NCBI RefSeq assembly: GCF_017581925.1
Contig: NZ_JAGEVG010000009.1
Coordinates: 62,001 to 126,000 of the forward strand
Length of the DNA: 64,000 nt
Direction: 5' to 3'
Source of the DNA: Gelidibacter pelagius
GTDB taxonomy: Bacteria; Bacteroidota; Bacteroidia; Flavobacteriales; Flavobacteriaceae
This document shows, in pieces, positions 26,108 through 60,545 of the stretch. The notes beneath the pieces were generated by a model, which did no database searches, was not told the origin of the DNA, and saw only the letters and a list, made by a program, of their open reading frames with translations. Position 1 is the stretch's first letter. Every line of letters begins with the position of its first letter. The translations under genes were made by a program, and so were the position numbers.

Positions 26108-26243
26108 TATCTGATGACTGATACTTGGACAACAGACAACGGATAACGAGGAAAGAAGTGCGTACTGAATCCTGAATATTGATCACTCAAAACATCAACT
26201 GAAAACTGCGACTGAGTACTGCGACTGAAAACTGAAAACCAAA
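26108..26243. repeat. Heptad-periodic tract A between convergent genes
   Basis: A 136-bp tract of degenerate units with a period of about 7: acaacag, acaacgg, ataacga, then tactgaa, tcctgaa, actgaaa, actgcga, ctgagta, ctgcgac, tgaaaac, tgaaaac. It ends within 3 nt of the stop codon of the minus-strand gene at 26246. One of six such tracts in the window. Confidence 0.7.
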
Positions 26244-26245
26244 CC

Positions 26246-27355
26246 CTATTCCCTCAACATCTCCACCGTAGCCACCGTTCTAAATCCAGAATGGTCAGAT
26301 CCAGAATCCCAACTGGTACCCATTCGTGCTGAAATCCTGAAACTCGCACAATACGAGGCATGACATAAAAAGGAACCGCCCTTAATGACATGCTCTTTTG
26401 CATAGGGATTAGCGGGATTGTAAGTCTGATCTGCGCCTTTAGGATTGATCAAAGGTTTTGAAGTGTCCAATTGTTTATAAGATTCCACATTGAACCAATC
26501 GCTGGTCAATTCCCATACATTACCAAGCATATCATAGACGCCAATACTATTGGGAGGATAGGATTTAACTGGAGCGATCAGTGCAAATCCGTCCGTGCTT
26601 TCGTTTTTTACAGGAAACGTGCCTTGCCATGTGTTTGCCGATGCATTCAATTGTGCAGGATCATTGCCCCATGTATATATGCCTTTTGTATCCTTGCCTT
26701 GGGCTGCAGATTCCCATTCCGCCTCGGTAGGTAAGCGTCTATTGGCCCATTTGCAATAGGCAATGGCATCTTCGTAAGCAATATGTACTACAGGATAATC
26801 ATCTTTGCCATCAATAGAACTATTTGGGCCTTCGGGATGTTTCCAATTGGCGCCAATTTTCCAAGTCCACCATTGTGTGTAGTTGTTCATATTGGCCACC
26901 ATATTCAAGTTTTTGTTAAAGATCAAACTACCAGGTTGTAGAACACTGTCTGCTGGTTTAGGCGTGCCTTCTGGTAACTCTTTTTTCATCTCTTCCCAAT
27001 CAATTGGACGTTCTGCCACGGTCATATAATCAGTGGCATCCACAAAAGCGCTGAATTGTTTATTCGTCACCTCTGTGACATCAATGAAAAATCCATCTAC
27101 GGTAACTTCATGGGCAGGCTGCTCTCTTGGCATGGCAAATTCATCGCCCTGTTTGGCTCCTTGCACAAAGGTTTTCCCTGCTACCCAAACCATACCTTCT
27201 GGAGTGGCCATGTCTTGTGGTTGTTCTTTCAGTAAGTCATGTTTTGGAATTTCCACAATAGCTGCTTTTTTTTCGGCGGAAGGATTCTTGCAGCTCATAA
27301 AAGCGACTATAGAAAAGACAAAAAACAGCGAGTTTTTATATGTGTGATTTGGCAT
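26246..27355 (-). CDS. Formylglycine-generating enzyme family protein (lipoprotein)
   Basis: SUMF1/FGE-fold protein. The open frame starts with TTG at 27373, but ATG 27355 gives a good lipoprotein signal (FSIVAFMSCKN). Core motifs are MVWVAGKTFVQGA at the N-terminus, EVTVDGFFIDVTEVTNKQFSAF, RLPTEAEWESAA and the C-terminal GGSFLCHASYCASFRISAR. The last motif keeps both cysteines of true copper-dependent FGE (CxxxxC), which oxidises the active-site Cys or Ser of sulfatases to formylglycine. No sulfatase gene is in the window, so its substrate lies elsewhere or differs. Exported lipoprotein FGEs are common in Bacteroidota. Confidence 0.9.
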   Translation of the reverse strand: MPNHTYKNSLFFVFSIVAFMSCKNPSAEKKAAIVEIPKHDLLKEQPQDMATPEGMVWVAGKTFVQGAKQGDEFAMPREQPAHEVTVDGFFIDVTEVTNKQFSAFVDATDYMTVAERPIDWEEMKKELPEGTPKPADSVLQPGSLIFNKNLNMVANMNNYTQWWTWKIGANWKHPEGPNSSIDGKDDYPVVHIAYEDAIAYCKWANRRLPTEAEWESAAQGKDTKGIYTWGNDPAQLNASANTWQGTFPVKNESTDGFALIAPVKSYPPNSIGVYDMLGNVWELTSDWFNVESYKQLDTSKPLINPKGADQTYNPANPYAKEHVIKGGSFLCHASYCASFRISARMGTSWDSGSDHSGFRTVATVEMLRE

Positions 27356-27555
27356 GAAACGAGGTTTTAGCAAGGGATTGCATTTGGTTAGAAATTCCCA
27401 AATGTAAATTTACTCAAATAATTTAATTAGTGCCGAGAATTGAAGTGCTTCTTCTTGCGTAGTAGAGCCTGGCGATTGATTAGAAAGATAGTGCTGTTGT
27501 GGTAATTAAAATTAGATATAATCAAAATAGGAGCAACGGTATATGGTATTCTAAT

Positions 27556-27939
27556 TTATAAAACAAACGTCTCAAATAGAAGATCCAATTCCTTCTGTGG
27601 ATCTGTGCACAATCCAGAATGTGTTTTGGAACTTTGGATGATGGTGCTTCTTGAAGCCGCCAACCATCTAAATCGGTCCGATACTTCAAATTCTCCAATG
27701 CAGCCTCCTTTCGGACGCCCTTTGCAAACCTCTTCCCATGCTTTTAAGTGATCGTTCAACATCGTGATGTCCAAATCTTCTGAAAAAGCTTCCAGTTTCT
27801 TTTTGTCGATTTTATATTTGACCCCAAGAAAGTTTTTTCGTTTTGAAAAAAGAAGCACGCCAACATTAAAGAATTCTTTCCGCTCAACTTTCGGAACGAT
27901 CCTGATAATGGCATATTCATAAGTCACTTTATCTTGCAT
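27556..27939 (-). CDS. DUF3037 domain protein
   Basis: A 127-residue soluble protein that matches DUF3037 by its N-terminal YEYAIIRIVPKVERKEFFNVG and the FRWLAASRSTIIQSS segment. The start codon overlaps the end of the HipA-like kinase gene by 11 nt, so the two are translationally coupled. The same pair recurs in many genomes, which suggests that the DUF3037 protein is a partner or substrate of the kinase. No biochemical role is established. Confidence 0.88.
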   Translation of the reverse strand: MQDKVTYEYAIIRIVPKVERKEFFNVGVLLFSKRKNFLGVKYKIDKKKLEAFSEDLDITMLNDHLKAWEEVCKGRPKGGCIGEFEVSDRFRWLAASRSTIIQSSKTHSGLCTDPQKELDLLFETFVL

Positions 27940-28708
27940 TTTGAGCTTCTTTTGCTAATACATCAATCATTGAAAGTTTGGTGGTCAGATAAAGGATATA
28001 AGCAGCTCGCATCTCATCTGGGGTGAGCGTTTCGCCTTCATGGATCAACCAATCCTCTGGAATGCTTGCTATAATGTCGACAATTTTTTCAGGAAGAAGT
28101 GACAGTTCAATACTCTTTGCTGCTGCAGGTAATTGTGTGGCCTGCGCCAATAAAACGTGATCTTTAATGAGTGGAAAAGATCGGGTGAGATGGTTCTCCC
28201 AGGTTGGCCAATTGTGATGAAAGTAAAAACTCGCACCGTTATCAATAACCCATAGTTCTTTATTCCAAATCAACAGGTTTGGATTTTTTGGGGTCCGATC
28301 AATATTACTGATAATACTGTCCAATAGTACCAATTTTGAAGCAAGTACGCCATCTATTTGATTCACCAAGGGGTCAAAAGTGATGGCTCCCGATAAGAAG
28401 TGTAGCCCGAGATTGAGACCGACGCTAAACTTCAATAAATCCTGGATTTCTTCGTCAGGTTCAGTTTTGCTGAAGGAATCGTCAAGATTCATAAAAACCA
28501 CTTCCGGAACTTTTAAGCCAATGGTCCTTGCTAATTCACCACCAATAAATTCGGCTATGAGTGCTTTTTTGCCCTGTCCGGCACCCCTGAATTTAAGCAC
28601 ATACATAAATCCATCGTCGGCTTTTACAATTGCAGGAAGTGAGCCGCCTTCGCGTAGAGGGCTAACATATTGCACCACATCAACGGTGCGAATATCGAGT
28701 GTATTCAT
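27929..28708 (-). CDS. HipA-like kinase
   Basis: A 259-residue protein kinase-fold protein of the short HipA-like family (no N-terminal Couple_hipA domain). ATP-binding lysine is in MYVLKFRGAGQGKKA; the catalytic loop is SNIDRTPKNPNLL (Asp and Asn) and the metal-binding Asp is in VIDNGASF. Classical HipA phosphorylates glutamyl-tRNA synthetase as a toxin with HipB antitoxin, but here there is no HipB-like gene; the partner is DUF3037. It may be a signalling kinase or a toxin-like enzyme. The gene is first in a two-gene minus-strand operon. Confidence 0.85.
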   Translation of the reverse strand: MNTLDIRTVDVVQYVSPLREGGSLPAIVKADDGFMYVLKFRGAGQGKKALIAEFIGGELARTIGLKVPEVVFMNLDDSFSKTEPDEEIQDLLKFSVGLNLGLHFLSGAITFDPLVNQIDGVLASKLVLLDSIISNIDRTPKNPNLLIWNKELWVIDNGASFYFHHNWPTWENHLTRSFPLIKDHVLLAQATQLPAAAKSIELSLLPEKIVDIIASIPEDWLIHEGETLTPDEMRAAYILYLTTKLSMIDVLAKEAQNAR

Positions 28709-28812
28709 AGAAACGAAGGTAGTGAAAAAGTAAATTGCTCAGGCATCAAAAAAATACATTATTAAGATCAGACATGATTTTTCAGTCACCCGAGCAATTT
28801 GATTGTTTTTAT

Positions 28813-29700
28813 TTAGCAACAGCCCGTATCTGGTGAGCAAGTAAGACCCTCAGATATCTCAGATAGTTTTATTTTAGGCTTTTCTGACACTGTGCCTTCT
28901 TTTTCGGCGTACACAGTAATGCTGAAAATTCCTGTGGCGTCTTTGTTAAACGCATTTATTTCATCTGCTGAGAGATATTTCGAAAGTATATCATCAGGAA
29001 TGGTAATTGGTTTTTCTTTTTGAATGGTAACGTTTTGAAATCCTCTGTCGGTGATCAATTGCAGGTATTCTGATTTTTGAATGGCACCCGCAACACATCC
29101 TGCATACATTTCCGCATCTTCTTTTAAAGCATCAGGGAGATTCCCTACCAAAACAATATCTGAAATACTAAAGTGGCCGCCCGGTTTGAGTACTCTATGG
29201 ATTTCTCCAATTACCTTTTGTTTATTTGGCACAAGATTCAGTACACAATTACTGACAATCACATCGGCCACATTATCGCTGATGGGCATGGCATCAATGT
29301 CGCCTTCTCTGAATTCCACATTATTATAGCCCAATTTTTCGGCATTGGTACGCGCTTTTTCTATCATGATAGGGGTGAAATCGATACCAATAACTTTTCC
29401 TTCTGAGCCAGTTTCATGTCGTGCCACAAAGCAGTCGTTTCCAGCGCCCGATCCTAAATCGATCACTGTATCGCCTGTTTTGATTTTTGCGAATTGTGTT
29501 GGAAGTCCACATCCTAAACCTAAATCGGCAGCTTCATTGTAGCCATCAGTCTCAGAATAGTCATCCATCATAATATTGTAAATCTTGTTTGAAGGCGTCG
29601 TGGCACCACAGCAGGAAGCTGCGTTTTCTGCTTTTCCTTGTTCGGCAATTCGCGTATAACGTTCTTTGACGATGTCTTTTAATTCTTGTTCTTTTTTCAT
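28813..29700 (-). CDS. arsM: Arsenite methyltransferase
   Basis: SAM-dependent methyltransferase of 295 residues that would methylate arsenite to volatile or excretable methylarsenicals. The SAM site is VIDLGSGAGNDCFVA. As(III)-binding cysteines match the ArsM pattern: the N-terminal SCCG, GLGCGLP, SNCVLNL and AGCVAGA. The C-terminus has further cysteines (LTCSPDTGCC). It lies 39 bp downstream of the arsR gene and is probably transcribed with it. No arsenite pump or arsenate reductase is next to it. Confidence 0.95.
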   Translation of the reverse strand: MKKEQELKDIVKERYTRIAEQGKAENAASCCGATTPSNKIYNIMMDDYSETDGYNEAADLGLGCGLPTQFAKIKTGDTVIDLGSGAGNDCFVARHETGSEGKVIGIDFTPIMIEKARTNAEKLGYNNVEFREGDIDAMPISDNVADVIVSNCVLNLVPNKQKVIGEIHRVLKPGGHFSISDIVLVGNLPDALKEDAEMYAGCVAGAIQKSEYLQLITDRGFQNVTIQKEKPITIPDDILSKYLSADEINAFNKDATGIFSITVYAEKEGTVSEKPKIKLSEISEGLTCSPDTGCC

Positions 29701-29739
29701 GTTAATGAATGTTTTAAAATGATTAGATAATCAGTGATT

Positions 29740-30072
29740 TTAGCAGCAATCGTTCTTAATGGAAACATCTTGATTTAAGAAATTCGATAGAATCTGTTTC
29801 ATTTTTGTCCAATTTTCTGGATTTATACAATAGCAAACTCGAGTGCCTTCAACACTTCCCTGAATTAGACCCAAGTTTTTCAACTCTTTAAGATGTTGTG
29901 AAATAGTTGGTTGTGCAAGACCAATTTCATTGACCAGATCACCGCAAACGCAGGTGTCGATCTTGAAAAGATGTTGTAGGATGGCTACGCGTGCAGGATG
30001 ACCAAATGCTTTGGCGAACACTGCAATTTCGTTTTGCTGGTCCGTAAATATTTCAGTTTTGGATATGCCCAT
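29740..30072 (-). CDS. arsR: ArsR/SmtB family repressor
   Basis: A 110-residue winged-helix metalloregulator that should release DNA when arsenite binds. The metal site is in the recognition region, DTCVCGDLVNEIG (CVC of the classical ELCVCDL box), and the helix-turn-helix is QPTISQHLKELKNLG. Two C-terminal cysteines (NDCC) may add ligands, as in some ArsR proteins. It precedes arsM. A matching dyad operator and promoter lie just upstream. Confidence 0.93.
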   Translation of the reverse strand: MGISKTEIFTDQQNEIAVFAKAFGHPARVAILQHLFKIDTCVCGDLVNEIGLAQPTISQHLKELKNLGLIQGSVEGTRVCYCINPENWTKMKQILSNFLNQDVSIKNDCC

Positions 30073-30087
30073 AATTCAATAAATTAC

Positions 30088-30109
30088 TTCATTGCAATAT
30101 TACGATGAA
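30088..30109. promoter_or_regulatory. ArsR operator candidate
   Basis: A 22-bp imperfect dyad (TTCATTGCAAT mirrored by ATTACGATGAA, 18 of 22 positions symmetric) lying 16 nt upstream of the arsR start and downstream of the -7 element. This is the position expected for autorepression by ArsR. Specific binding is inferred. Confidence 0.6.
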
Positions 30110-30121
30110 TGACTTTCTTAT

Positions 30122-30129
30122 CAAAGATA
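30122..30129 (-). promoter_or_regulatory. -7 promoter element (TATCTTTG) of arsR-arsM
   Basis: On the minus strand TATCTTTG matches TAnnTTTG exactly. A TTTC lies 17 nt farther upstream in the -33 position, close to the TTTG consensus. The ArsR dyad lies immediately downstream. Confidence 0.6.
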
Positions 30130-30210
30130 TTTTTTATTTATTTTTTGAAAGTTGTGCAGAAATTGCCCCCTGAAAAATATAACTCCTGATTGAATTAAAT
30201 GAGATAAAAA

Positions 30211-31002
30211 TTAAGGCTTTTTACTGTAGAATTTGAGTACAGCCCGCTTGCGCATTTTATTGGAATAGGCCCGGAGTCGTTTTTGTCTTCGTTTTACTTT
30301 AATGAATTTCAGTCTCATATCGTCATAATAGAGGCTTAATATCAAAATGACTACACCAAGAATCAGGGTGTTCAATTTCAATTCTAAGGTTGAATAAAAA
30401 AACCCTGCGGATAGTCCCCCTAAGAAGAAGAAGGCAATGATATACAATCGGAGTTTTATGGTCGATTTTATTTCTTTCCTGTTAGGGTGTGTTTTTGGAA
30501 AAAACAATTGTGAAAGCTCAATACCTAAATCTGTAAACAACCCTGTAAGATGCGTCGTTCTCACTACGGCATTTGAAAGTTTGGTGACGAAGGAGTTCTG
30601 CAGTCCCATGGCGAAAAGCAACAAACACACCATAAGCTCAGGATAATTAAATTGTGGAATATTGCTCATAATGGCAACTCCAGATAAAATCACACATTCA
30701 ATGAGCGTTGGGATAACGAAAACATTGAGTTTTTTGTTTTCTTTAAAAGTTTCAATCAGTATGTTTGATGAAAATGAGCCAAAGAGAAATGAGAAAATAT
30801 AAAGAAAATAAATTGTCCCCTTCCAAAATTTAAAATCTGCCACATCTCTTATAAATAGCGCAAAATGGCCAGTCACGTTTGTGGTCAATTCGTTGAATGC
30901 CAAAATACCTGAAACGTTCACAATTCCGGCAACAAAAGATAGGACGATGGCAATCCGAAGATTGTGCTGTACTGTTCTTTTTTTTCCTTGATGTTTAAAC
31001 AT
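30211..31002 (-). CDS. DUF1275 (YoaK family) membrane protein
   Basis: A 263-residue protein with about six hydrophobic helices. FVAGIVNVSGILAFNELTTNVTGHF and LTGLFTDLGIELSQLFF are the two conserved DUF1275 blocks. The C-terminus is strongly basic (RRQKRLRAYSNKMRKRAVLKFYSKK). The family has no established substrate; proposed roles as a transporter are untested. It is a separate gene 138 bp upstream of arsR on the same strand. Confidence 0.87.
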   Translation of the reverse strand: MFKHQGKKRTVQHNLRIAIVLSFVAGIVNVSGILAFNELTTNVTGHFALFIRDVADFKFWKGTIYFLYIFSFLFGSFSSNILIETFKENKKLNVFVIPTLIECVILSGVAIMSNIPQFNYPELMVCLLLFAMGLQNSFVTKLSNAVVRTTHLTGLFTDLGIELSQLFFPKTHPNRKEIKSTIKLRLYIIAFFFLGGLSAGFFYSTLELKLNTLILGVVILILSLYYDDMRLKFIKVKRRQKRLRAYSNKMRKRAVLKFYSKKP

Positions 31003-31052
31003 TTAGATTTCTATGGTTAGGTGATAACTTACGATTTTATATTGACACAAGA

Positions 31053-31619
31053 TTATTTTAAGACCGAGTTTTTCATATCGAATACCAATCCAATATAGGT
31101 ATTGTTGTTAAACTCGAATTCATCTATTTTTTCCCATCCCAGCTTTTTAGTGTGTGCCTTTTCGGAAATGATGTTGACCTTATTTATGAAGGTAATCGAA
31201 ACTGGATATTTCTTAAAGAATTCAATTCTCATTTCTTCAAAAAGTTGGTTTAAAACTCCTTTCCCTCTATAGTTTTCATCAATACAAACGGGGCCATATT
31301 GAAAACTGTTTTCAGTGGTAATGGGAGTTCCATGAAAAGACAATTTCGGAAATCGGGAGACCATAAAATTGAAGATTTCCCATTGTTCAAAATACGTCCA
31401 ACTTCCCGCAAAGGCGTAGGCGACAATACCCTCGTTTTCATTCTCTGCGATAAATACACCATTTTGTTGAAGGATGTCTTCAATTTGAGAACTTGTAAAA
31501 GGCGTCGTCACAAAACCTTTTTGCCGTTCAACAGCATTGAGATTTCTGTACAAATATTTTTCCTGAAGTGATAGAATACCGGGAATGTCATCCGTATGTC
31601 CTATACGTGTTTTTATCAT
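31053..31619 (-). CDS. GNAT family N-acetyltransferase
   Basis: A 188-residue acetyltransferase. The acetyl-CoA pyrophosphate site is visible as ENYRGKGVLNQLFEEM (Q/RxxGxG/A type), preceded by the beta-strand FQYGPVCID. The N-terminus IRTGHTDDIPGILSLQEKYL-type start (here TRIGHTDDIPGIL) is typical. The acceptor is unknown. It lies 50 bp upstream of the DUF1275 gene, same strand. Confidence 0.85.
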   Translation of the reverse strand: MIKTRIGHTDDIPGILSLQEKYLYRNLNAVERQKGFVTTPFTSSQIEDILQQNGVFIAENENEGIVAYAFAGSWTYFEQWEIFNFMVSRFPKLSFHGTPITTENSFQYGPVCIDENYRGKGVLNQLFEEMRIEFFKKYPVSITFINKVNIISEKAHTKKLGWEKIDEFEFNNNTYIGLVFDMKNSVLK

Positions 31620-31798
31620 TTGAAATGAGTTTTAAAATGCCAACATTTCGGATAAGATCAGCAATGCCGTTGGGGCAGCTAATTTAACAAATTAATGCGG
31701 ATCGTTAAGCTCAGGTGTTGACTTTTTAGAGTAGGCAGTTAGCTTACACAAATGGCTGAGGTTTAGAGATGTGATTAGACCTGTTTTCCGTGGAGGTT

Positions 31799-32380
31799 TT
31801 AAACACTCTTAGTTTCTGGCTTTATTTGAAGGTGGTCCATACGCTTGCCCACCAATATTTTTCCTCCAACGGATTTAAAGCCCAATTTTAAATATAATTT
31901 TTTGGCCTTCGGATTTTCCTCATCTACCAAGAGCCCAATAGTTTGTCTTTTTTGGGTGACATAGTAATTGATTAAGAACTTGAGCATTGTTGCACCTATC
32001 CCTTTGCCCTGTTGGTTAGGGTTCACACCTAACGAATCGATATAATACTCACCTGATTGTGTTTCATCTTCTGGATTGAAGTCTGTCTTAAATTGTGATT
32101 TTATATACTGACTGATCGGGAGTCGCAATTGATTTAACTGCGATCCGTCGTAGATGTTGACAGCAGCAATAATTTGATCATTATCTTCTGCCACAAAACA
32201 GTTTTGATACGAATATTGATTCTGCTCTTGATGTATGAAATGGATTAAAAAATCTCTCGCTTTATTTGGGTCCTTTTGACCAATAAATTCACATACAATG
32301 TCTTCCATGGCCAATAGTAAATGAGTGGCGATGGCTGCTGAATCTTCTCTGTTTGCTTTTCTTATCTTTATTGAGGTCAT
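31799..32380 (-). CDS. GNAT family N-acetyltransferase
   Basis: A 193-residue acetyltransferase with KIRKANREDSAAIATHLL at its N-terminus and the acetyl-CoA motif NPNQQGKGIGATMLKFL. The C-terminal DEENPKAKKLYLKLGFKSVG is the standard final GNAT segment. Substrate unknown. It is separated by about 180 bp from the GNAT gene downstream, and the two are not close copies. Confidence 0.87.
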   Translation of the reverse strand: MTSIKIRKANREDSAAIATHLLLAMEDIVCEFIGQKDPNKARDFLIHFIHQEQNQYSYQNCFVAEDNDQIIAAVNIYDGSQLNQLRLPISQYIKSQFKTDFNPEDETQSGEYYIDSLGVNPNQQGKGIGATMLKFLINYYVTQKRQTIGLLVDEENPKAKKLYLKLGFKSVGGKILVGKRMDHLQIKPETKSV

Positions 32381-32433
32381 AGTGTTTTACTGAGTCTTTA
32401 TTGGGTATGAGATTGGTTTTTTTACACTATTTT

Positions 32434-32799
32434 CTATCTCATATAATAGATGTAAACTGCAAATTTAAAAATTTGAGACATATCTGATTCGTTGATTTTA
32501 GTGTAGGTCTTTAAATAGTCAGAGGTCATTTTGTCAATGTCAAAATCGGATAAATCGGCATAATTGAAGTCAGACTTGTTGTAATATTTAGATTTTGTTG
32601 ATTGTGAAATCTCTCTGCACAAATCATTCTTTAAATTTCTGATATAGGCAACGCGCTCTTGATCATAAGGTCCAAGATTGTAATATTTTAATCTCCGTTT
32701 TATCTTCTTTTCGATTTTTTTAAAATCTGAAGAATCACGTTCGTAGACTACATCGCTAAAACAAATATAGTCATAGGTTTTATCTGGTTTTTGTCCCAT
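32434..32799 (-). CDS. Hypothetical protein
   Basis: A 121-residue soluble protein rich in Lys, Tyr and Asp, with no signal peptide or membrane helix. A basic helix (KKIEKKIKRRLKYYN) lies in the first half and several aromatic residues in the second (YNKSDFNYADLSDFDIDKM). I do not recognise the family. It is 53 bp upstream of a GNAT gene on the same strand and may be cotranscribed. The regular ATG start and length make it a real gene rather than a chance frame. Confidence 0.6.
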   Translation of the reverse strand: MGQKPDKTYDYICFSDVVYERDSSDFKKIEKKIKRRLKYYNLGPYDQERVAYIRNLKNDLCREISQSTKSKYYNKSDFNYADLSDFDIDKMTSDYLKTYTKINESDMSQIFKFAVYIYYMR

Positions 32800-35032: not shown

Positions 35033-35043
35033 AATTAGGTTGA

Positions 35044-44490: not shown

Positions 44491-44551
44491 ATTTCATACC
44501 TCATACCTCATACCTCATACCTCAACCTCATACCTCAAAACCTCGAAAGCT
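44491..44551. repeat. Heptad tandem repeat tract B (CCTCATA)
   Basis: Repeats of CCTCATA: four nearly perfect units from about 44499, then slipped units (cctcaac, ctcatac, ctcaaaa). It runs up to the stop codon of the DUF1569 gene on the minus strand. Unit length is 7 bp, as in the other tracts. Confidence 0.8.
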
Positions 44552-45845: not shown

Positions 45846-45849
45846 GAGA

Positions 45850-45897
45850 AGGAAGACGGATGACGGATGACGGATGACCGATGACGGGTGACGGGAG
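45850..45897. repeat. Heptad tandem repeat tract C (GACGGAT)
   Basis: About seven units of GACGGAT and close variants (gaccgat, gacgggt, gacggga), starting 5 nt after the radC stop codon. Period 7 bp. Confidence 0.85.
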
Positions 45898-45916
45898 GCC
45901 GAAGACCAATGATTGC

Positions 45917-45957
45917 CTGCCCGACCGATTGCCTGAAGTTTTTCTAAAGGCGGGCAG
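45917..45957. repeat. GC-rich long hairpin
   Basis: CTGCCCG and CGGGCAG arms (7 bp) enclose 27 nt. It follows tract C by 20 nt and resembles the palindromes inside the multicopper oxidase gene (CTGCC/GGCAG cores). The rest of 45846-46234 shows no gene. Confidence 0.55.
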
Positions 45958-46234
45958 CATTTGCAGAGGAGGGAACACTATAAACTACTCAAACACCAAA
46001 TTCCAATCAAATCAGGCCAAATTGACACACGAAATCATCATATTCCATGGTCTTACTATTATGTAAAACAGTTTAATTAGGAAGGTTAATTTAATGAATA
46101 GAAGCTTAAGCTGGAAATTTGTCTTTTATTATCTCCTGTAGAATATTTTTTTTAAATTTAATTAACTTCATGAATATTGAGCAAATGGCCATTTTGGAAT
46201 ATGGAATTTGTAATTTTGAAGTTTACGACTATCA

Positions 46235-49378: not shown

Positions 49379-49400
49379 TAACTAAGGCTGTTTATCAAAT

Positions 49401-49492: not shown

Positions 49493-49583
49493 GTGTCTTT
49501 TTTCAATCTCTATTGTCTGTTTTCTATAGTCTTTTGTCTCTATTCTATCGTCTTTTGTCCAACTACCCACTACCCACTACCCT
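49493..49583. repeat. Heptad-periodic tract D (CTACCCA and others)
   Basis: Between convergent genes: TCTATTG, TCTGTTT, TCTATAG, TCTTTTG, TCTCTAT, TCTATCG, TCTTTTG, then CTACCCA, CTACCCA, CTACCCT. The period is mostly 7 bp. It ends at the rarA stop codon. Confidence 0.75.
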
Positions 49584-50864
49584 CTAATACCCATATTTCG
49601 TCTTCCAACGTTGTTTTAAAAACTCACGTTGCGAGTTTTCCCTGGCATTATTTCCCGGTTCGTAAAGTTTGGTGTTTTTGATTTCGTCAGGAAGAAACTC
49701 TTGTGGCGCAAAGTTGTTTTCGTAACTATGGGCGTATTGGTAATTATCGCCATAACCCAATTCCTTCATGAGTTTGGTAGGCGCATTTCTTACCGATAAA
49801 GGCACCGATAAATCACCAGTTTCCCTAACCAATTGTTGTGCTCTCCCAATAGCCTCATAAGCGGAATTGCTTTTTGGAGACGTAGCCAAATAGGTGGCAC
49901 ATTGGCTCAGTATAATGCGAGACTCTGGGTGTCCAATCACAGAGACCGCCTGAAACGTGGTATTCGCCATAACTAATGCCGTCGGATTGGCGTTGCCAAT
50001 ATCTTCACTGGCCAAAATCAGCAAGCGTCGGGCAATGAATTTGACATCTTCACCACCTTCAATCATCCGTGCCAACCAATATACCGCTCCATTGGGATCA
50101 CTCCCTCGAATTGATTTAATAAACGCCGAAATAATGTCATAATGCTGTTCGCCAGTTTTATCATAGCGCACCGTATTGCTCTGTACTTTTTTGAGCACGG
50201 CTTCATTGGTGATCACAATCTTTTCATCTTCATCATAAGAAGTGATGATCAATTCGAAAATATTCAAAAGCTTTCGGGCATCGCCACCAGAAAGGCGCAA
50301 TAAGGCTTCGGTTTCCTTCAGTTGGATGTTGCGCTTTGAAAGAATCTCATCTTGGGTAATCGCGCGCTGCAACAAGTCTTCCAAGTCTTTTTTATCAAAA
50401 GAATTCAGTACATACACCTGAGCACGGGACAGGAGGGCAGGGATGACCTCAAAACTTGGGTTTTCAGTCGTAGCACCAATAAGGGTGACCCAACCTTTTT
50501 CAACCGCTTCCAACAACGAATCTTGCTGAGATTTACTGAAGCGATGGATCTCGTCAATAAACAACAGGGGGTTTTTAGCTGTGAACAAACCACCGCTGTG
50601 CTTCGCCTTATCGATTACTTCCCGGATGTCCTTGACCCCAGAATTGATGGCACTCAGCTTATAAAATGGACGGTTGGACTCATTGGCAATAATATTCGCC
50701 AAGGTCGTTTTCCCCGTTCCAGGAGGCCCCCAAAAAATCATGGACGGAATAACGCCCTGCTTGATGTGTTGCGTCAAAACCCCTTTGTCGCCAATCAAAT
50801 GGGATTGACTCAAGTAGTCTTTTAAATATTTTGGTCGTAAACGTTCTGCTAATGGTGCATTCAT
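49584..50864 (-). CDS. rarA: Replication-associated recombination protein A
   Basis: A 426-residue AAA+ ATPase (MgsA/RarA, related to the clamp loader) that acts at stalled replication forks. N-terminal [20 protein letters not shown] is the family start. Walker A is [10 protein letters not shown], Walker B is [10 protein letters not shown], sensor 1 is [10 protein letters not shown], and the C-terminal tetramerisation part has [21 protein letters not shown] (in part). Length and start are standard. It is monocistronic. Confidence 0.95.
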
Positions 50865-51040: not shown

Positions 51041-51240
51041 GCTGCCGGCGCGCAGGTTTGCTCTAACAGCGAAGCGGTCTTGATTCTATTATCGGGCCTT
51101 GTTAATTATAAACTAAAATGTCAATAGTAAGCATATCTTTATTTCTACTTTTTGGGCATGCCTTTTTTGTGAAGGACAAAAAAGTCGTGCTCTCGCGGCT
51201 CAATCTTTTTGTTTTGAAAAAAAAGCAAAAAGGATTTCAA
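51041..51240. ncRNA. Structured intergenic element, possible dispersed repeat
   Basis: In the 469-bp gap before the rhomboid gene: CTGCCGGCGCGCAG (GC palindrome, 51042-51055); CTTTTTTGT-gaagg-ACAAAAAAG (perfect 9-bp stem, 51162-51184); then a GC-rich segment with CTCTCGCGGCTC; then AATC-TTTTTG with CAAAAA-GGATT (51202-51236). The regular succession of hairpins suggests a folded RNA or DNA element. Strand of activity is unknown. No gene is seen in 50865-51333. Confidence 0.4.
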
Positions 51241-52247: not shown

Positions 52248-52294
52248 AAAATCAACAATCAACAATCAACAATCGTCAATCGTCAATCAAAAAT
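52248..52294. repeat. Heptad tandem repeat tract E (AATCAAC)
   Basis: AATCAAC repeated three times, then AATCGTC twice and AATCAAA, a 7-bp period throughout, located between convergent genes and reaching the rlmB stop codon. Confidence 0.85.
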
Positions 52295-53029
52295 CTAAAG
52301 TCTTTGTCTCACCACCTCATACAAAAACGCACCACAGGCCACAGAAACGTTCAAGGATTCAATCTCTCCTAAAATCGGCAATTTGGCTTTTTCATCCACT
52401 ATTTTTAGAATAGACGGATTGATGCCTTTGCCTTCAGATCCCATGATAATCGCACAAGGTTCTGTGAAAGAAACATCGTAAAGATTTTGGTCGGTCTTTT
52501 CAGTAGCGGCAATTACTTTAATGCCCGATGCCTGCATGTAGAACACGGCATCTTTAATATGATCGACCTTGCAGATTGGAATTTTGAAAATAGCACCCGC
52601 ACTTGTTTTGATGGTATCGCCATTTACGGGAGCACCGCCTTTTTTCTGAATGATAATTCCTGAAACACCGGTACATTCTGCAGTTCTGATTATGGCACCA
52701 AAATTACGGACGTCACTTATCTGATCCAATAGTAGAAATAAAGGCGTCTTGCCGGATTCCAAAACATTGGTGACCAATTCCTCCAAGGGATAAAAACTGA
52801 TCGGTGCAATTTGTGCCACAACACCTTGATGGTTCTTAGTGGTCAATCGGTTGAGTTTTTCAATAGGGACGTAAGAAAAGTTTAAACGTTCCTTATGTAA
52901 AAGTTGCTCCAATTCAGTAGACAAATCGCCGCGCAATCCCTTTTGTAAAAATATTTTGTCAATGTTTTCACCAGATTTAATAGCTTCTATAACCGCTCTG
53001 ATTCCAAAAATAGTTGTTTCGTGTTCCAT
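52295..53029 (-). CDS. rlmB: 23S rRNA 2'-O-methyltransferase RlmB (TrmH/SpoU family)
   Basis: A 244-residue SPOUT-fold methyltransferase that modifies G2251 of 23S rRNA. The N-terminal substrate-binding part starts FGIRAVIEAIKSGENIDKIFLQKG. SpoU motifs are LDQISDVRNFGAIIRTAECTG, IMGSEGKGI and ESLNVSVACGAFLYEVVRQR. Length and layout are standard. Its 3' end abuts a heptad repeat tract. Confidence 0.94.
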   Translation of the reverse strand: MEHETTIFGIRAVIEAIKSGENIDKIFLQKGLRGDLSTELEQLLHKERLNFSYVPIEKLNRLTTKNHQGVVAQIAPISFYPLEELVTNVLESGKTPLFLLLDQISDVRNFGAIIRTAECTGVSGIIIQKKGGAPVNGDTIKTSAGAIFKIPICKVDHIKDAVFYMQASGIKVIAATEKTDQNLYDVSFTEPCAIIMGSEGKGINPSILKIVDEKAKLPILGEIESLNVSVACGAFLYEVVRQRL

Positions 53030-53158: not shown

Positions 53159-53181
53159 AAATTTCAAGTAGGCAAATTAGA

Positions 53182-54771: not shown

Positions 54772-54774
54772 CGT

Positions 54775-57700
54775 TTAAAATTTTATTTCTAAGTTAAGAC
54801 CGTAAGTTCTTGTAGATGGTAATGAACCACCTTCTGAGCCTTGAATATTACCACTACCTGCAGTTGCAACTTCAGGATCGAAGTTGTCGTTATCTAAGCC
54901 CCATGTGAAAAGATTTCTTCCAAATGCACTAAGTCTTAAAGAGGCAATATCTTTGGTCCAAGATTTTGGGAATGTGTACCCAAGTGTTACTTCTCTTAAT
55001 TTAACGTAATCGGCGTCAAACACGTTTAAAGCGTCTGCTCCAAAGTAGTAATCAGTTCCCCATCTTTGTGCACTCACTGAGTTTGTGTTTGCTGCTGTAT
55101 TGCTAACTGTATAATTACCTTCAGCATCATAAGTTACCGTACCTGTAACACCTTGAAGAACGACACCGTCTTCGCGAATATTGTTGGCAGCTGTACTCTC
55201 GGCAATACCAGAGTAGTGGCTCCACAAGTTTGTTAAAGATCTGTATTTACCTCCTTTTTGAATATCAATTAAAAAGCTAAAGTTGAAGTTCTTGTAAGTG
55301 ATGCTGTTTCTGAAGCCCATGTTATAATCAGGCAATACAGAACCCAAGTTTTGAACAGTTTTAGTTTCTTGATAAAGTCCATTTGATCCCACTACGCGGT
55401 TTCCGTTATCATCATAAACAAAATCGGTACCTCTAATGACACCGTAAGGTTCGCCAACAACAGCATTTAATGTGACACCGTTGAAAGGGAAACGTGCGAG
55501 TTCGAGAGAATTTACGCCTGGTAATAGTTCTAAAAGCTTGTTTTTGTTTTTTGAAAAATTCCAAGTTACTGTCCAATCAAAATCATCCGTTCTTATCGGA
55601 GAGACGTTAAGTAAGACTTCAATACCTTTGTTTTCCAATTTACCAGCATTCGCAACTGTCGAGGTATATCCTGTAGCAGCGTCAACTTGAACTGGAGTAA
55701 TCAAATCTTCAGTAAGTTCGTCGTAATAAGTGATGTCAAAGTTGATTCTGTTGTTAAGAAAGCCCATTTCCAGACCCACTTCCCAAGTAGTCTTGTTTTC
55801 AGGTTTTAGATTTGGATTGTTGTTCTTGCTTGGTTGGGAAAAACGAGGTTCTCCGTTAAATACCGGTCTGTCATCAAAAACATTCCTTAATTGGTAAGGA
55901 TCAGTGTCACTACCTACTTCAGCATAACCCCCTCGTACTTTACCAAAGGCAAGCCAGTTGGCGTTAATTAGCTGAGAAAAAACAACACTACCAGATACTG
56001 AAGGGTAAAAGAAAGAGTTGTGTGCCGCCGGAAGTGTGGACGACCAGTCATTACGTCCTGTTACAGTTAAATAATACGTGTTATCGTACCCAAAGGATGC
56101 AGATCCAAAGACACTCTCAATCTTTCTTTCAGAATCGTAGTCGTTTACGAAAGGGTTTGACTTAGAGTTGCTAATATTGTAAATGCCATCTACTACAAGA
56201 CCGCCGTTGGTTTCTCCAGATAATGAGTGGTATTCATTAACTCTTTTGTTGGCACCAACAAAGGCGTTAATGTTTAATTTATCGTTTATGAAATTATTGT
56301 CATAATGGAGTAAAGCTTCGTAATTAATCTCTGAGAAATCACGATCAATTTCGTAGTAACCAGACTCTCCTTGAGATCCTATTGCGGTTCTATCACTTCT
56401 TCTATCATCATAGTTGTCGGTATAAATTTTACCTGTTACGAAAAGTTCGTCAGTAAAATTATACTTCAATCCTACATCTCCAAAATACCTTGACCTTTTA
56501 TCTTGTGAAGTGTTTTTATTTATCGTCCAATACGGGTTGTCTGTGTATCTTACAGTAGCATCATTATATGCTGTTCTGTTCCAAGAACGCTGAGTTCCAT
56601 CAGGTAGCATATATTTTTTTAAACGCTCCATATCCAATGATGTTTGGCCAAATTGGAAAAACTGCTGAATGACACCAGCACCAGTATAACCAATTGAAGG
56701 ACGATTGAAACCATCAGTTACCGTAAAGTTAATACCGGCATTGACTTCTAATCTATCGGTGATTTTTGCAGACCCATTAAAGTTTAATGATGTTTTGTCA
56801 AGTGATGAATTAGGTACAATTCCCGTTTGTTGTGTATTGTTAATCGATAACCTCATTTGAGATTTTTCAGATCCAGTTGAAAAAGCCACACCATTATTAT
56901 AGGACATCCCTGTATTGAAGAAGTCCTCGCGGTCATATTTAGGATATACCCATGCACGCGGATTCAAATAATCTTCTGGAAATTCAGGATCAAATGCATC
57001 CCAATGTAATACTCTACGATTAGGATCGTAAGCTGGTCCCCATGATTCATCGGTGGCGTAATCTACAATGTCGTAGGTTTGTCCATTGATGGTCGCTTGT
57101 GCAAAATCTGAGGCTCCACTACCTCCACCGTAAAGTTTTTGAACTTTCGGGATGATGCTGATAGACTCAAAACTGATTCCAGAGTTGAATGTAATTTCAG
57201 ATTTACCTGATTTACCTGATTTGGTAGTAATAAGAATCGCTCCATTGTTTGCTCTATTACCGTATAATGCTGCTGCAGCACCACCTTTAAGAACGTTCAT
57301 GGAAGCAATGTCATCAGGGTTGATATCAAAACCAGTATCTCCATAATCGACACCTCCGCCTCCAGTTTGAGTTCCAGTAGAATTATAGTTACTGTTATCC
57401 AATGGGATACCATCTACTACAATTAATGGACGGTTGTTTTGGGTGATCGAACCGATACCTCTTAGAACAATTCGCGTTGAACCTCCTAAGTTACCTGATG
57501 GCGAACTGATTTGAACACCTGCGACTTTACCGCTTAAAGCGCCAAGTGCATTTGCGTTTCTCGACTCAACGAGTTCTTCACCAGCAATTTGTTGGGTAGA
57601 ATACCCCAATGATTTTTTCTCTCTCGAAATACCCAATGCCGTTACAACTACTTCATCAAGCATTGCAGCGTCTTCCTGCATAGTAACGTTAAGTGTATTT

Positions 57701-57963
57701 GACGCCCCAACGGTAATTTCTTGGGATTTTAGCCCGATATAGGTGAAAGAGAGAACATCACCTGTATCAGCATTAATGGAGTATTTTCCATCAAAATCTG
57801 ATTGTGTACCTGTTGTGGTTCCCTTTACAATAATGTTAACTCCGGGAAGCGGCAGACCTGACTGGTCCGTTATGGTTCCCGAAACCACTTTGTCTTGCGC
57901 ATACAACGTATGTGCGACTAACACTACCAAGAGTGTTAGAATTACACGAAATTGTGTTCTCAT
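54775..57963 (-). CDS. SusC/RagA family TonB-linked outer-membrane protein
   Basis: A 1062-residue TonB-dependent channel. After a signal peptide (ends VAHTLYAQ) comes the carboxypeptidase-like domain (VSGTITDQSGLPLPGVNIIVKGTTTGTQSDFDGKYSI, in part), then DEVVVTALGISREKKSLGYS as the TonB box region, the plug (ILITTKSGKSG) and a 22-strand barrel ending in YGLNLEIKF. The ATPase-powered transport uses TonB-ExbBD. It is the first gene of the SusCD operon and carries no anti-sigma partner nearby. Confidence 0.96.
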   Translation of the reverse strand: MRTQFRVILTLLVVLVAHTLYAQDKVVSGTITDQSGLPLPGVNIIVKGTTTGTQSDFDGKYSINADTGDVLSFTYIGLKSQEITVGASNTLNVTMQEDAAMLDEVVVTALGISREKKSLGYSTQQIAGEELVESRNANALGALSGKVAGVQISSPSGNLGGSTRIVLRGIGSITQNNRPLIVVDGIPLDNSNYNSTGTQTGGGGVDYGDTGFDINPDDIASMNVLKGGAAAALYGNRANNGAILITTKSGKSGKSEITFNSGISFESISIIPKVQKLYGGGSGASDFAQATINGQTYDIVDYATDESWGPAYDPNRRVLHWDAFDPEFPEDYLNPRAWVYPKYDREDFFNTGMSYNNGVAFSTGSEKSQMRLSINNTQQTGIVPNSSLDKTSLNFNGSAKITDRLEVNAGINFTVTDGFNRPSIGYTGAGVIQQFFQFGQTSLDMERLKKYMLPDGTQRSWNRTAYNDATVRYTDNPYWTINKNTSQDKRSRYFGDVGLKYNFTDELFVTGKIYTDNYDDRRSDRTAIGSQGESGYYEIDRDFSEINYEALLHYDNNFINDKLNINAFVGANKRVNEYHSLSGETNGGLVVDGIYNISNSKSNPFVNDYDSERKIESVFGSASFGYDNTYYLTVTGRNDWSSTLPAAHNSFFYPSVSGSVVFSQLINANWLAFGKVRGGYAEVGSDTDPYQLRNVFDDRPVFNGEPRFSQPSKNNNPNLKPENKTTWEVGLEMGFLNNRINFDITYYDELTEDLITPVQVDAATGYTSTVANAGKLENKGIEVLLNVSPIRTDDFDWTVTWNFSKNKNKLLELLPGVNSLELARFPFNGVTLNAVVGEPYGVIRGTDFVYDDNGNRVVGSNGLYQETKTVQNLGSVLPDYNMGFRNSITYKNFNFSFLIDIQKGGKYRSLTNLWSHYSGIAESTAANNIREDGVVLQGVTGTVTYDAEGNYTVSNTAANTNSVSAQRWGTDYYFGADALNVFDADYVKLREVTLGYTFPKSWTKDIASLRLSAFGRNLFTWGLDNDNFDPEVATAGSGNIQGSEGGSLPSTRTYGLNLEIKF

Positions 57964-58228
57964 ATTTAAATTAATTTGAATTAGCCTGGTTCAAAAGTCC
58001 TAATAAAAAGTTAAAAAACCAATTAAAACTTCGGGGAATTTTAAATTAATCTAAATAAAATTATTTACGGTATTGATCTTCAAAGATTTATATTAACTAA
58101 ATCGATTGAGATAGTACGTTTCGATTACATTGAAGAGAGGAGGGGCTTGATAATGATGTTTTTTTATAGAACATTTGGTTCAAACGAAGCTGGATCAAAT
58201 CAAGAAGAAATTTTACAGTAAGAAAATA

Positions 58229-59929
58229 TTAAAAAGTTGCCGACAGACTGATATGAATTTTAGAATTTGACAGCTTAATACTTTGATTTTCTGAACTGCC
58301 ATTACTATAGTTCAATTTAAAAAGCCCAGCTTGTGTGAGCACTCCAAATCCAAAACCTAATCCTAAGAGTTTGCTTTTCAGATCAAGGATCTGATTTTCG
58401 TAATAGGCGAGGTCGATAATGGAATTAACATAGAGATTGCTCGAGACTTTATATCGATACTCTGTATTGAATACGGCATATAAATTGGCTGTCAAGCTAT
58501 TTTCTTCAAAGCCTCTTATGGAGTTAATCCCCCCAAACCGAAATAATTCGTTTTCAATATATGTATCCGAATCTAAAATCGCAGCACTGACCTGACCATA
58601 AATACTATTCCTGAGATTAAGATTGACTATTTTAAAACTGTTCAATTCCAGTTTAGTTTGTGATTGACCAATGTCTTCAATGGTTCTTTTGCCCATTCCC
58701 GCAGATATGTCAAACTGAAAGTTGACAGGAAACAACTTATCATAGCGTTGTGGTCTTATATGAATATAACTGAGGTTGTAAAATGTCGATTTAAAATCGT
58801 TAATAGTCAAATTAAGGTTGTCCAATAAATTGGTAGATGCCTGTGTATTGATGCCCAATGCCAGGCTGTTTTTTGGATCGAATTGATAATCCATTTTGGC
58901 AAACTGGGTTGTGGTAACAAAAGAAGAATCCTTTTTGAAAATATTGAGGCCCAGTTGCAACCCTATTGGAGACCCAAATAAATAGGGAAGTTTTGCTTTG
59001 ACATCAAAAGTCTTTTGCTCACTTTCGTCACTTTTATAGAGCAATCGGAGTGATTCACCGTAATTGAGATTGTTGATCAGGTGGAGATTGAGGTAGCCAT
59101 CAAACTCTAGTTTATCGGTATCGGTGTTTGTGCCAAAACCCAAGAATCCATCAAACGTATTGCTTTTTTGTTTTTCTACATATATATATAGTAAGGTCGA
59201 ATCTTTAGTGAAAAGTATTTCAGGATCTTTTATTTGGGCGGCAAACTGTAAATTCTCTAAAGCCTCCGTTTTTTCTCTTATGGTTTTTAAATTGAAGGCT
59301 TGCTTGCTTTTAATCTTTAGGTAGCGCTTTACATAAGGTTTTGGGAATTTATCGTAGCCTTTAACAATAACGGTATCGATTGTTCTTTGCAGTTGTGCTA
59401 CAATGTTTAAGTCGGCATATAAAACACCTGCCTCTTTTCTGATATTGGTAAGTTGAAGTTTAGAAAAAGGATCTCCTGTGTTTGCAATCTCAGCGTTCAA
59501 TGTTTTAAGGGATGCTTCCAGGGAATTAATTTCAACTTCGAAATAGTTTTCCGTGATGACATTTGATACTAATTTCAGGATTTTTCGATTAAAACCAGTG
59601 TCAAAATGAATTCTGGCCGTTGTATAGCGTTTGCCTAAAATATATGTGGCGACAAAAGATGAGTCGTTGACTTTTTTTAAATCGAGAAACTCACTTTCCA
59701 AATAACCTAAATGGGATAAGGAATTTGCTATTGAATTGACCTCCAATTCAAGTGAATTAAAGTCGCTAAACCTCTGTTGGTAGCCCAAAGCGTCAAGTAT
59801 GATTGTTGCATCCTCATTGGCCCCGAGAGCTTTTAACTCTAAAGATTGAGCTAAAAGGTTTGAAGTGGATAGCCATCCGACAAGAAATATGAAAGCGGTT
59901 GTTTTTAAGGTCATGTTAAGCTTAAACAT
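58229..59929 (-). CDS. Omp85/BamA-like outer-membrane protein
   Basis: About 566 residues from ATG 59929; the open frame begins with TTG at 59935. After a signal peptide (SNLLAQ) come POTRA-like repeats (about residues 25-250; TIDTVIVKGYDKFPKPYVKRYL) and a C-terminal beta barrel. LFRFGGINSIRGFEENSL carries the (V/I)RGF loop 6 motif of the Omp85 superfamily. It is too short and without the five POTRA of BamA, so it may be a TamA-like or two-partner secretion-type member. The substrate is unknown. It is upstream of, but not close to, SusC. Confidence 0.85.
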   Translation of the reverse strand: MFKLNMTLKTTAFIFLVGWLSTSNLLAQSLELKALGANEDATIILDALGYQQRFSDFNSLELEVNSIANSLSHLGYLESEFLDLKKVNDSSFVATYILGKRYTTARIHFDTGFNRKILKLVSNVITENYFEVEINSLEASLKTLNAEIANTGDPFSKLQLTNIRKEAGVLYADLNIVAQLQRTIDTVIVKGYDKFPKPYVKRYLKIKSKQAFNLKTIREKTEALENLQFAAQIKDPEILFTKDSTLLYIYVEKQKSNTFDGFLGFGTNTDTDKLEFDGYLNLHLINNLNYGESLRLLYKSDESEQKTFDVKAKLPYLFGSPIGLQLGLNIFKKDSSFVTTTQFAKMDYQFDPKNSLALGINTQASTNLLDNLNLTINDFKSTFYNLSYIHIRPQRYDKLFPVNFQFDISAGMGKRTIEDIGQSQTKLELNSFKIVNLNLRNSIYGQVSAAILDSDTYIENELFRFGGINSIRGFEENSLTANLYAVFNTEYRYKVSSNLYVNSIIDLAYYENQILDLKSKLLGLGFGFGVLTQAGLFKLNYSNGSSENQSIKLSNSKIHISLSATF

Positions 59930-60014
59930 CTTCAAAGCTAACGGAAATTTTTGTCTAAAAATATGTACTATGTTAAATAAATGGTCAAAGATTTAAAAAT
60001 TAATCACTTTACAT

Positions 60015-60044
60015 TTGAAAAAAAGAAATTATTTTCTACCTTTG
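60015..60044 (+). promoter_or_regulatory. Promoter of the str operon
   Basis: TTG at 60015-60017, 19 nt spacer, TACCTTTG at 60037-60044: a full match to the Bacteroidota housekeeping sigma factor consensus. The start of rpsL is 44 nt further downstream. Confidence 0.8.
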
Positions 60045-60088
60045 CAGCCCTCAAAAGCGAGGAGTAAAATAAATTTATATAGAAATAT

Positions 60089-60463
60089 ATGCCAACAATT
60101 TCACAATTAGTACGAAAAGGAAGAACCAAAATAACCAAGAAGAGTAAATCGGTTGCCCTTGATTCGTGTCCACAAAGACGTGGTGTGTGTACTCGTGTTT
60201 ACACGACGACACCTAAGAAACCTAACTCAGCAATGCGTAAGGTAGCAAGGGTTCGTTTGACAAACGGAAACGAGGTCAACGCATACATCGGCGGCGAAGG
60301 TCACAATCTACAGGAGCACTCGATAGTATTGGTTAGAGGTGGAAGGGTAAAAGATTTGCCAGGAGTTAGATATCACATCGTTCGTGGTGCCTTAGACACC
60401 GCAGGTGTTACAGGTAGAACACAACGTAGATCTAAATACGGAACAAAACGCCCTAAAAAGTAA
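60089..60463 (+). CDS. rpsL: 30S ribosomal protein S12
   Basis: A 124-residue core ribosomal protein at the decoding centre. [38 protein letters not shown] and [19 protein letters not shown] are all conserved. Lys residues at the streptomycin-sensitive positions are wild type (TTPKKPNSA). First gene of the str operon, 124 bp after a strong promoter element pair. Confidence 0.99.
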
Positions 60464-60473
60464 AACAAGTTAG

Positions 60474-60545
60474 GTGTTATGAGTTATGAGTTATGAGTGC
60501 GTTTGCCTCAATCTCTAACCTCTGACGACTAATAACTAAAAACTT
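60474..60545. repeat. Heptad tandem repeat tract F (TTATGAG) within the str operon
   Basis: Three units of TTATGAG (60477-60497), then a degenerate 7-bp series ctaacct, ctgacga, ctaataa, ctaaaaa. It occupies the whole gap between rpsL and rpsG, where ribosomal genes are normally close. Confidence 0.85.

Follow-up and report, generated by a model that had tools for sequence, protein, structure and literature searches.

Heptamer tracts of the window

The window analysed here, a 64,000-nt stretch of Gelidibacter pelagius (RefSeq assembly GCF_017581925.1), comprises positions 62001-126000 of a 181-kb contig (NZ_JAGEVG010000009.1) in a draft genome of 4.49 Mb and 101 contigs. Between its protein genes lie six tracts of tandem repeats with units of about 7 nt. 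Arrays of the same kind also occur as matched inverted arms on the two sides of S23 genes, so that the process behind them looks tied to a genetic element. The S23 family is also named '23S rRNA intervening sequence protein' (PF05635) and 'four helix bundle protein' (NCBIfam TIGR02436), and is called 4HB, for four-helix bundle, below. Genes were called with a simple script based on open reading frames (ORFs) and codon usage. The tracts are as follows.

26108-26243, minus strand: degenerate array of 6-7-nt units (CTGAAAA, CTGCGA, ACAACGG and others, read on the plus strand), 2 nt from the stop codon of an FGE-sulfatase gene on the minus strand
44491-44551, minus strand: TCATACC array, which the coding strand reads as GGTATGA; it abuts the stop codon of a DUF1569 gene on the minus strand
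45847-45906, plus strand: GGATGAC array, directly after the RadC stop codon
49493-49583, minus strand: ACTACCC array, abutting the stop codon of an MgsA-like ATPase gene; an adjoining degenerate 7-nt stretch looks older
52248-52294, minus strand: AATCAAC/AATCGTC array, abutting the stop codon of a SpoU methylase gene
60468-60545, plus strand: GTTATGA array after the rpsL stop codon, then a degenerate stretch of opposite sense (CTAATAACTAAAAACTT) before rpsG

The original prediction had placed six tracts here, and all six were recovered. Tandem Repeats Finder (TRF) returned a clear period of 7 in five, at 44494-44537 (6.4 copies of TCATACC), 45851-45894 (6.3 copies of GGATGAC), 49562-49586 (3.6 copies of ACTACCC, beside the degenerate stretch 49494-49559), 52250-52295 (6.6 copies of AATCAAC) and 60468-60498 (4.4 copies of AGTTATG). 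In the degenerate tract at 26108-26243 it gave only short pieces of period 7, 6 or 13. The same prediction had five of the six abutting the 3' end of a gene, which was right about stop codons and an undercount, since at their original coordinates all six lie 0-10 nt from one. It had also described the units as unrelated. They do differ from tract to tract; however, units drift into one another within a tract, and one unit recurs in distant phyla. The unit TAACTGA is absent from all five clear tracts. The adjacent genes are ordinary by Pfam, encoding an FGE-sulfatase domain, DUF1569, RadC, an MgsA-like AAA ATPase, a SpoU methylase and ribosomal protein S12.

Two other repeats lie close to these tracts. 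A GC-rich palindrome (GCCTGCCC ... GGGCAGC) occupies 45915-45958, just past the RadC tract, and similar CCCG/CGGG palindromes also stand between arrays in the rhomboid-SpoU spacers of sister genomes G006 and G008. At 46190-46231, just before the DUF7033 start codon, there is a TTTGGAA repeat of 7-nt period that is kept in several sister species; repeats of this type recur before other starts and seem distinct from the arrays at stops.

Turnover among sister species

The spacers holding the six tracts were compared among eight sister genomes wherever both flanking genes were found. After the DUF1569 stop codon, TCATACC is replaced in sister species by TCATAAC, CTCCTAA, AGAAGCT or no array. The SpoU gene, followed here by AATCAAC, is followed by a long TAGCATC run in G001; in G003 an additional array separates the SpoU stop from the one found in both G003 and the source genome. 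The MgsA stop, with ACTACCC here, is followed by CTAATCC/CTAATGC in G002 and by a 7-nt spacer without array in G001 and G006-G008; copy number at this site differs between species by whole units, from three GGGTAGT to eight GGGTAGT/GGGTAAT units. Related units follow RadC in G003, and the other sister species have no array there. The FGE-sulfatase tract is absent from the shorter spacers of G006-G008, while in G007 and G008 a 24-nt spacer replaces the array between rpsL and rpsG.

Orthologous gene ends thus carry different heptamers or none, which indicates that arrays are born, change unit and vanish within the genus. The change of unit at one locus, which had been proposed as a check, is seen at the DUF1569, SpoU and MgsA ends, and it speaks for turnover rather than for one inherited sequence.

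Excess of period 7 and location of the arrays

Autocorrelation was applied to samples of the genome, counting runs of at least 10 matches at a given lag. Within the window, intergenic DNA holds six lag-7 runs, none at lags 3-6 and 8-12, and two at lag 13. A blind sample of 320 kb, of which 42.4 kb is intergenic, contains 23 intergenic lag-7 runs; among the non-harmonic lags from 3 to 21 no count exceeds 4, the harmonic lag 14 has 8, and coding DNA has a single lag-7 run. A further 462-kb sample is biased, its contigs having been picked for GTTATGA repeats and the window being part of it; there, 37 lag-7 runs stand against 0-6 at non-harmonic lags and 13 at lag 14, none lies in coding DNA, and a first-order Markov simulation expects about 0.1 lag-7 runs. 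The refuting condition set in the original prediction was thus tried on samples of the genome and not on the whole of it, and the finding survives.

A mismatch-tolerant finder was run on 783 kb of the source genome (both samples together), 240 kb of G002 and 224 kb of G003. It returned 63, 15 and 46 lag-7 tracts, respectively, compared with 0-8, 0-1 and 0-2 at the other lags from 5 to 13 and with 27, 10 and 22 at lag 14. In coding DNA, lag-7 tracts number 3, 1 and 2. Lag 11 is slightly in excess in the source-genome samples (6 runs in the biased sample, 4 in the blind sample and 7 tracts with the mismatch-tolerant finder).

Tract density is highest between convergent genes (40 in 32.5 kb), intermediate between codirectional genes (75 in 102.7 kb) and lowest between divergent ones (9 in 31.9 kb). 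In 33 of the 73 tract-bearing spacers of the three species, a tract comes to within 10 nt of a gene edge, whereas uniform placement gave a mean of 11.3 and a maximum of 20 in 2000 draws; 28 of these 33 edges are stop codons. Both the period-7 excess and the 3'-end enrichment that had been anticipated are therefore borne out, and their joint presence in the source genome and its sister species argues for one process rather than chance.

S23 genes between inverted arms in the genus

At locus L162, four GTTATGA units precede a small open frame followed by five TCATAAC units, and the frame resembles the S23 family by eye. A search with PF05635 found 78 rows in nine genomes of the genus, six of them in the whole source genome. 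Five rows fell below the cut-off and were left out, leaving 73 genes, among which L278 and L297 of G001 look like mutual copies and were both counted. In-frame stops occur in 15 of the 78 rows, as expected of decaying elements.

Heptamer tracts are concentrated around these genes. A tract lies within 250 nt of 34 of the 73 4HB genes as opposed to 145 of 1260 other genes, and tracts lie on both sides within that distance at 11 of 73 versus 5 of 1260. The 4HB flanks hold 54 tracts of period 7 compared with 0-8 of periods 4-6 and 8-10. The upstream flank of each gene was also matched against its reversed downstream flank, with a cut-off score of 13 within 250 nt; flanks were taken from the domain for 4HB genes and from the gene edges for other genes. 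Inverted arms at this score border 41 of 73 4HB genes against 19 of 1268 others (odds ratio 84); among genes encoding 85-180 aa the count is 8 of 288. Direct matches of the same score are found at 11 of 73 4HB genes and 15 of 1268 others. Where the arms are at least 18 nt long, the best self-match is at lag 7 in 25 of 35 loci. The 5' arm has more G than C in 35 of the 41 armed loci and more C than G in 5.

Presence and absence were examined at one site of the genus, G000:C79 (L331), whose 4HB gene was found in G000, G001, G003 and G006-G008, whereas G002, G004 and G005 lack it. Directly upstream of this element, at query positions 906-953 and 994-1050, stands a different short repeat with an internal palindrome, which has many copies in all nine genomes. 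A 4HB protein of the source genome matches PDB entry 2gsc, the Xanthomonas S23p, with an E value of 6.9e-8. The Avd family of diversity-generating retroelements gave no match above its cut-off: NF033474 scored 13.1 bits against the required 80 (E 0.09), in one G000 protein.

Elements in other genomes and phyla

Genomes beyond the genus entered by two routes. A class sample of 60 genomes was drawn regardless of arrays, and the best-scoring locus was taken in 29 of the 48 genomes with PF05635. Cyanobacterial and further genomes were reached via GTTATGA arrays and consequently say little about how common such arrays are. They came from a scan of named genomes for four GTTATGA units, which gave at least 117 stretches; polarity was assessed on 80 of these, and PF05635 was searched for in 46 genomes. 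Bacteroidota and Cyanobacteria supply most of the stretches listed, while Ignavibacteria, Elusimicrobia, Marinimicrobia, Gammaproteobacteria and others contribute single records; some stretches belong to metagenome bins.

PF05635 was found in 48 of the 60 class genomes, in 19 of a set of 20 array-bearing genomes, 17 cyanobacterial and none from Bacteroidota, in 23 of 26 further array-bearing genomes and in none of 14 control genomes. Inverted arms border 21 of 29 loci in the class sample (direct matches at 3), 22 of 30 in the mainly cyanobacterial set (direct 2) and 24 of 30 in the further genomes (direct 2). Over all sets, 107 of 161 PF05635 loci have inverted arms at the score used. Lag 7 is the best lag in 15 of 19 class loci and 20 of 22 mainly cyanobacterial loci with arms of at least 18 nt, and in 16 of 24 armed loci of the further genomes. 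The 5' arm is richer in G than C in 20 of 21, 21 of 22 and 17 of 24 loci, respectively, and the reverse holds in 1, 0 and 3.

The arms match their own partner in 67 of 89 loci, while swapped partners match in 9 of 445 combinations. L398, which is the G003 gene of L233 again, was kept in this count and left out of the 161-locus set. Each element therefore has its own sequence, mostly heptameric, on both sides. Taken together, the layout recurs in several phyla: each gene has a pair of arms that match one another but not the arms of other genes, and the units differ by copy.

Among class genomes, the pattern of three AGTNNTN units followed by AGT occurs in 26 of 48 genomes with 4HB (358 matches) against 1 of 12 without (1 match; Fisher p 0.0075, kinship ignored). 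The backward control of this pattern, itself heptameric, was found in 34 of 48 against 1 of 12 (p 1e-4, kinship likewise ignored). No lag-7 tract was present in 335 kb (33.4 kb intergenic) from 11 of the 12 class genomes without 4HB.

One genome of the class sample, G053, holds one family in three forms. It has nine PF05635 rows, one of which fell below the cut-off and was left out; all eight others have inverted arms, with scores of 14-31 against 7-13 for direct matches, and their units include AATTAGG, AGCTAAG, GAACTAT and GTTATAA/GTTATGA. The arm AGTTATAAGTTATGAGTTATAAGT recurs at 44 places in this genome with at most two mismatches, and its backward control at none. Sixteen of these places were read, ten of them picked as unpaired matches, and at eight of these ten a degenerate partner came to light. 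At two places an inverted pair with a spacing of about 370 nt encloses a 4HB gene, in one case with the AGTTATAAGTTATGAGTTATAAGT arm; at twelve the two inverted arms stand 20-44 nt apart and enclose no gene; and two are solo arms. A full element, short inverted pairs without a gene and solo arms with one arm sequence thus coexist in a single genome, solo arms being few among the places read. The pattern looks like a mobile element with short derivatives. The G053 elements that were read and G000:C79 lie between open frames.

Polarity and unit composition

Read along GTTATGA, the left gene edge is the nearer one in 65 of 75 arrays among the matches listed, and this holds whether the left gene runs forward (32 of 37) or backward (33 of 38); twelve places inside a frame or with a gene on one side only were skipped. 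Published work gives the same nearer-edge rule for the GGGAATC repeats of Xanthomonas and the GGGGA(T/C)T repeats of Nostoc (PMC4692102, consulted in excerpt). In the genus, and for any unit, the strand with more G than C leads away from the stop codon, and is therefore the coding strand, in 34 of 45 spacers compared with 233 of 475 tract-free ones. Measured as G+T against A+C, this polarity appears in only 28 of 47. At start codons it resembles the background (15 of 22 against 374 of 558).

By rank, TGA/TCA is the most enriched trinucleotide in the units. Stop codons in all three frames were tried and rejected as the cause of the 7-nt unit, given that 98 of 124 units contain stops versus 90 +/- 3.9 after permutation, a mild enrichment, and that TAG is depleted. 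By eye, the units at some genes look copied from the last bases of the gene itself. Rho sites, like proteins with a 7-nt footprint, are a speculative candidate.

Other repeats of the window

The spacer between the MgsA-like and rhomboid genes holds, at 51150-51210, a stretch with GGGCATGCC, AAAAAAGTCGTGCTCTCGCGGCTC and a AAAAAGGATT tail that is kept in seven of nine species and partly in the other two; it is perhaps a small RNA or a repeat. At 13141-13569 there is a 225-bp tandem duplication (1.9 copies, 88% matches) within a 908-aa frame, which we take to be two heavy-metal-associated domains of a copper-type ATPase.

Interpretation and alternatives

We consider, with moderate confidence, that heptamer arrays are the end arms of dispersed small elements with an S23/4HB gene, and that the tracts of the window are probably solo arms of such elements or products made in trans. 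A full element would consist of a 4HB gene between two inverted arms, mostly of tandem heptamers, with the 5' arm usually richer in G. The ring-shaped 4HB protein may bind the arms or their hairpin and bring in a host polymerase or nuclease. Arms would grow and homogenise in 7-nt steps, so that units could drift while the two arms of one element stay matched. The six tracts of the window would then be solo arms or products of the same system acting in trans, and gene 3' ends would collect solo arms because insertions there are tolerated. The original prediction had favoured one mechanism, perhaps slippage or a fixed-step enzyme, over a shared ancestor. The period-7 excess, the 3' ends and the turnover of units agree with a single process, but arrays are more than a property of gene ends, as the matched inverted arms at S23/4HB genes demonstrate.

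Several results weigh against this reading. At the tracts of the window there is no second arm, and a 4HB remnant was found neither in the window (best E 0.011) nor in the 73 tract spacers (best 0.027), and for want of one the idea that the window tracts are 4HB elements in decay was rejected. In the genus, hairpins are no commoner among tract-bearing spacers (4 of 45) than among the others (49 of 495), and the window spacers score 7-11; tract spacers as hairpins were therefore rejected too. A function of the arms as RNA hairpins was likewise rejected, because they have no wobble asymmetry (103 versus 118). In the genus, 32 of 73 4HB genes have no arms at score 13, and array density is weakly correlated with 4HB number (rho 0.49, p 0.19, over nine species and small regions). 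No PF05635 match was found in 4 of 46 array genomes, and the correlation of 4HB and arrays over genomes ignores kinship. In 4HB-bearing class genomes, no tract was seen away from 4HB genes, in 24 kb of two genomes and the outer flanks of the 29 loci, which include only 2.1 and 2.8 kb of intergenic DNA. G000:C79 offers no clean empty site, other sequence being present at the junctions read in G002 and G005. Lastly, the Xanthomonas and Nostoc heptamers are described, in the available part of PMC4692102, as generally without link to insertion sequences or transposons.

Among the alternatives, the one that survives best is that 4HB genes are passengers inserting by preference into existing inverted heptamer arrays of other origin, which we regard as unlikely. 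It would account for arrays far outnumbering 4HB genes, since 783 kb of the source genome hold 63 tracts and the entire genome has just 6 PF05635 rows, and for arms that differ between copies, unlike ordinary transposon ends. However, inverted pairs are rare in the genus among tract spacers that lack 4HB, and thus few targets of the right shape would be available for such insertion. The G053 family, with its arms present both with and without the gene, fits either view.

Plain replication slippage or unequal exchange, with arrays persisting where they are harmless, explains the whole-unit changes of copy number at MgsA and the near absence of arrays from coding DNA. Slippage alone gives no reason why the period should be 7 and not 5, 6, 8 or 9, why a single gene family should have matched inverted arms, or why arrays should be polar with respect to gene edges, and we hold it to have little chance of being the whole explanation. 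Least probable by our estimate is that selection keeps arrays at gene ends, for example as all-frame stops, as transcription or RNA-decay signals, or because a protein whose footprint is 7 nt binds them: the highest density between convergent and the lowest between divergent genes, the coding-strand G bias after stops and the enrichment of TGA/TCA agree with it, but stop codons as a class are only mildly enriched and TAG is depleted, orthologous gene ends often lack an array, and the arms of 4HB genes have no RNA-stem signature.

Starting from the favoured reading of arrays as element arms, we put forward a wider proposal, tentatively and with more doubt than conviction. S23/4HB proteins might serve cross-phylum mobile elements that recognise their ends by the period of the repeats rather than by a particular sequence. 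Each birth of an element would write both ends as heptamers of a new unit, and the G-rich strand would run from the host DNA into the element, as if target 3' ends were extended in 7-nt steps. The heptamers of cyanobacteria, Xanthomonas, Beggiatoaceae and Bacteroidetes would be tracks of such elements, and the intervening sequences (IVS) of rRNA one landing site. If this is true, ends with a fixed period and a variable sequence would represent a new type of end marking.

Comparison with known systems

Heptamer arrays and S23/IVS elements are each known. The IVS of Coxiella 23S rRNA is a 428-nt element with an S23p ORF and terminal inverted repeats, excised by RNase III, and tandem heptameric repeats whose number varies between strains lie just upstream of S23p (PMC4990558, consulted in excerpt); the excerpt does not generalise these heptamers. 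It also cites the crystal structure of Xanthomonas S23p, a homopentamer of four-helix bundles. The elements described here share with this IVS the S23/4HB gene, the flanking terminal inverted repeats and heptamers beside the gene. They differ in sitting between protein genes, in being many per genome with a heptamer of their own each, and in having short and solo derivatives. Armed elements encode a PF05635 protein by construction, and TIGR02436 was matched as well. An S23-type IVS lies inside an rRNA gene, which is not the case for the window tracts, G000:C79 or the G053 elements; at the other loci no rRNA search was made.

Tandem 7-bp units between genes have been reported as GGGAATC in Xanthomonas and GGGGA(T/C)T in Nostoc (Rehm et al. 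2015, PMC4692102). As in the arrays treated here, they lie nearer to the 5' neighbouring ORF whatever its direction, and many stand between convergent pairs in Xanthomonas. In contrast, each organism has one main unit, chosen for its G-quadruplex potential, and the available part of the paper gives no link to S23.

The original prediction knew of no description of such repeats in this group. This does not hold, as MacGregor (2015; PMC4679880, in excerpt) reported TAACTGA heptamer arrays in five Bacteroidetes, with other heptamers beside some. These repeats of Beggiatoaceae, Cyanobacteria and some Bacteroidetes are likewise intergenic heptamer direct repeats in the same far-apart phyla. Unlike the arrays treated here, they have one fixed unit and, in BOGUAY, mostly lie just upstream of start codons, and the excerpt gives no S23 link. 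AACTGAT is one base off AACTCAT, given as the reverse complement of GTTATGA. As tandem 7-bp repeats that are intergenic and many per genome, the window tracts fit the general class of heptamer arrays (STRR, TAACTGA and GGGAATC type). The STRR are heptanucleotide tandem repeats of cyanobacteria and, to our knowledge, have been described as repeats and not as arms of an S23 element.

In the literature searched, whose coverage is limited, we found neither the heptamer-S23 link as a rule nor a private heptamer for each copy, and no account of such elements scattered among the protein genes of many phyla. The over-representation of heptamers and the role of the S23/IVS protein are treated there as separate questions, and joining them gives each a testable partner. 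Finally, REP/REPIN elements offer a parallel in architecture: a RAYT gene lies between inverted ends, and many short inverted copies occur elsewhere, as in the elements described here. The difference lies in the ends and the protein, since REP/REPIN combine a constant end sequence with a tyrosine transposase, whereas the S23 elements carry heptamer arms that differ from copy to copy around a gene for a four-helix-bundle protein.

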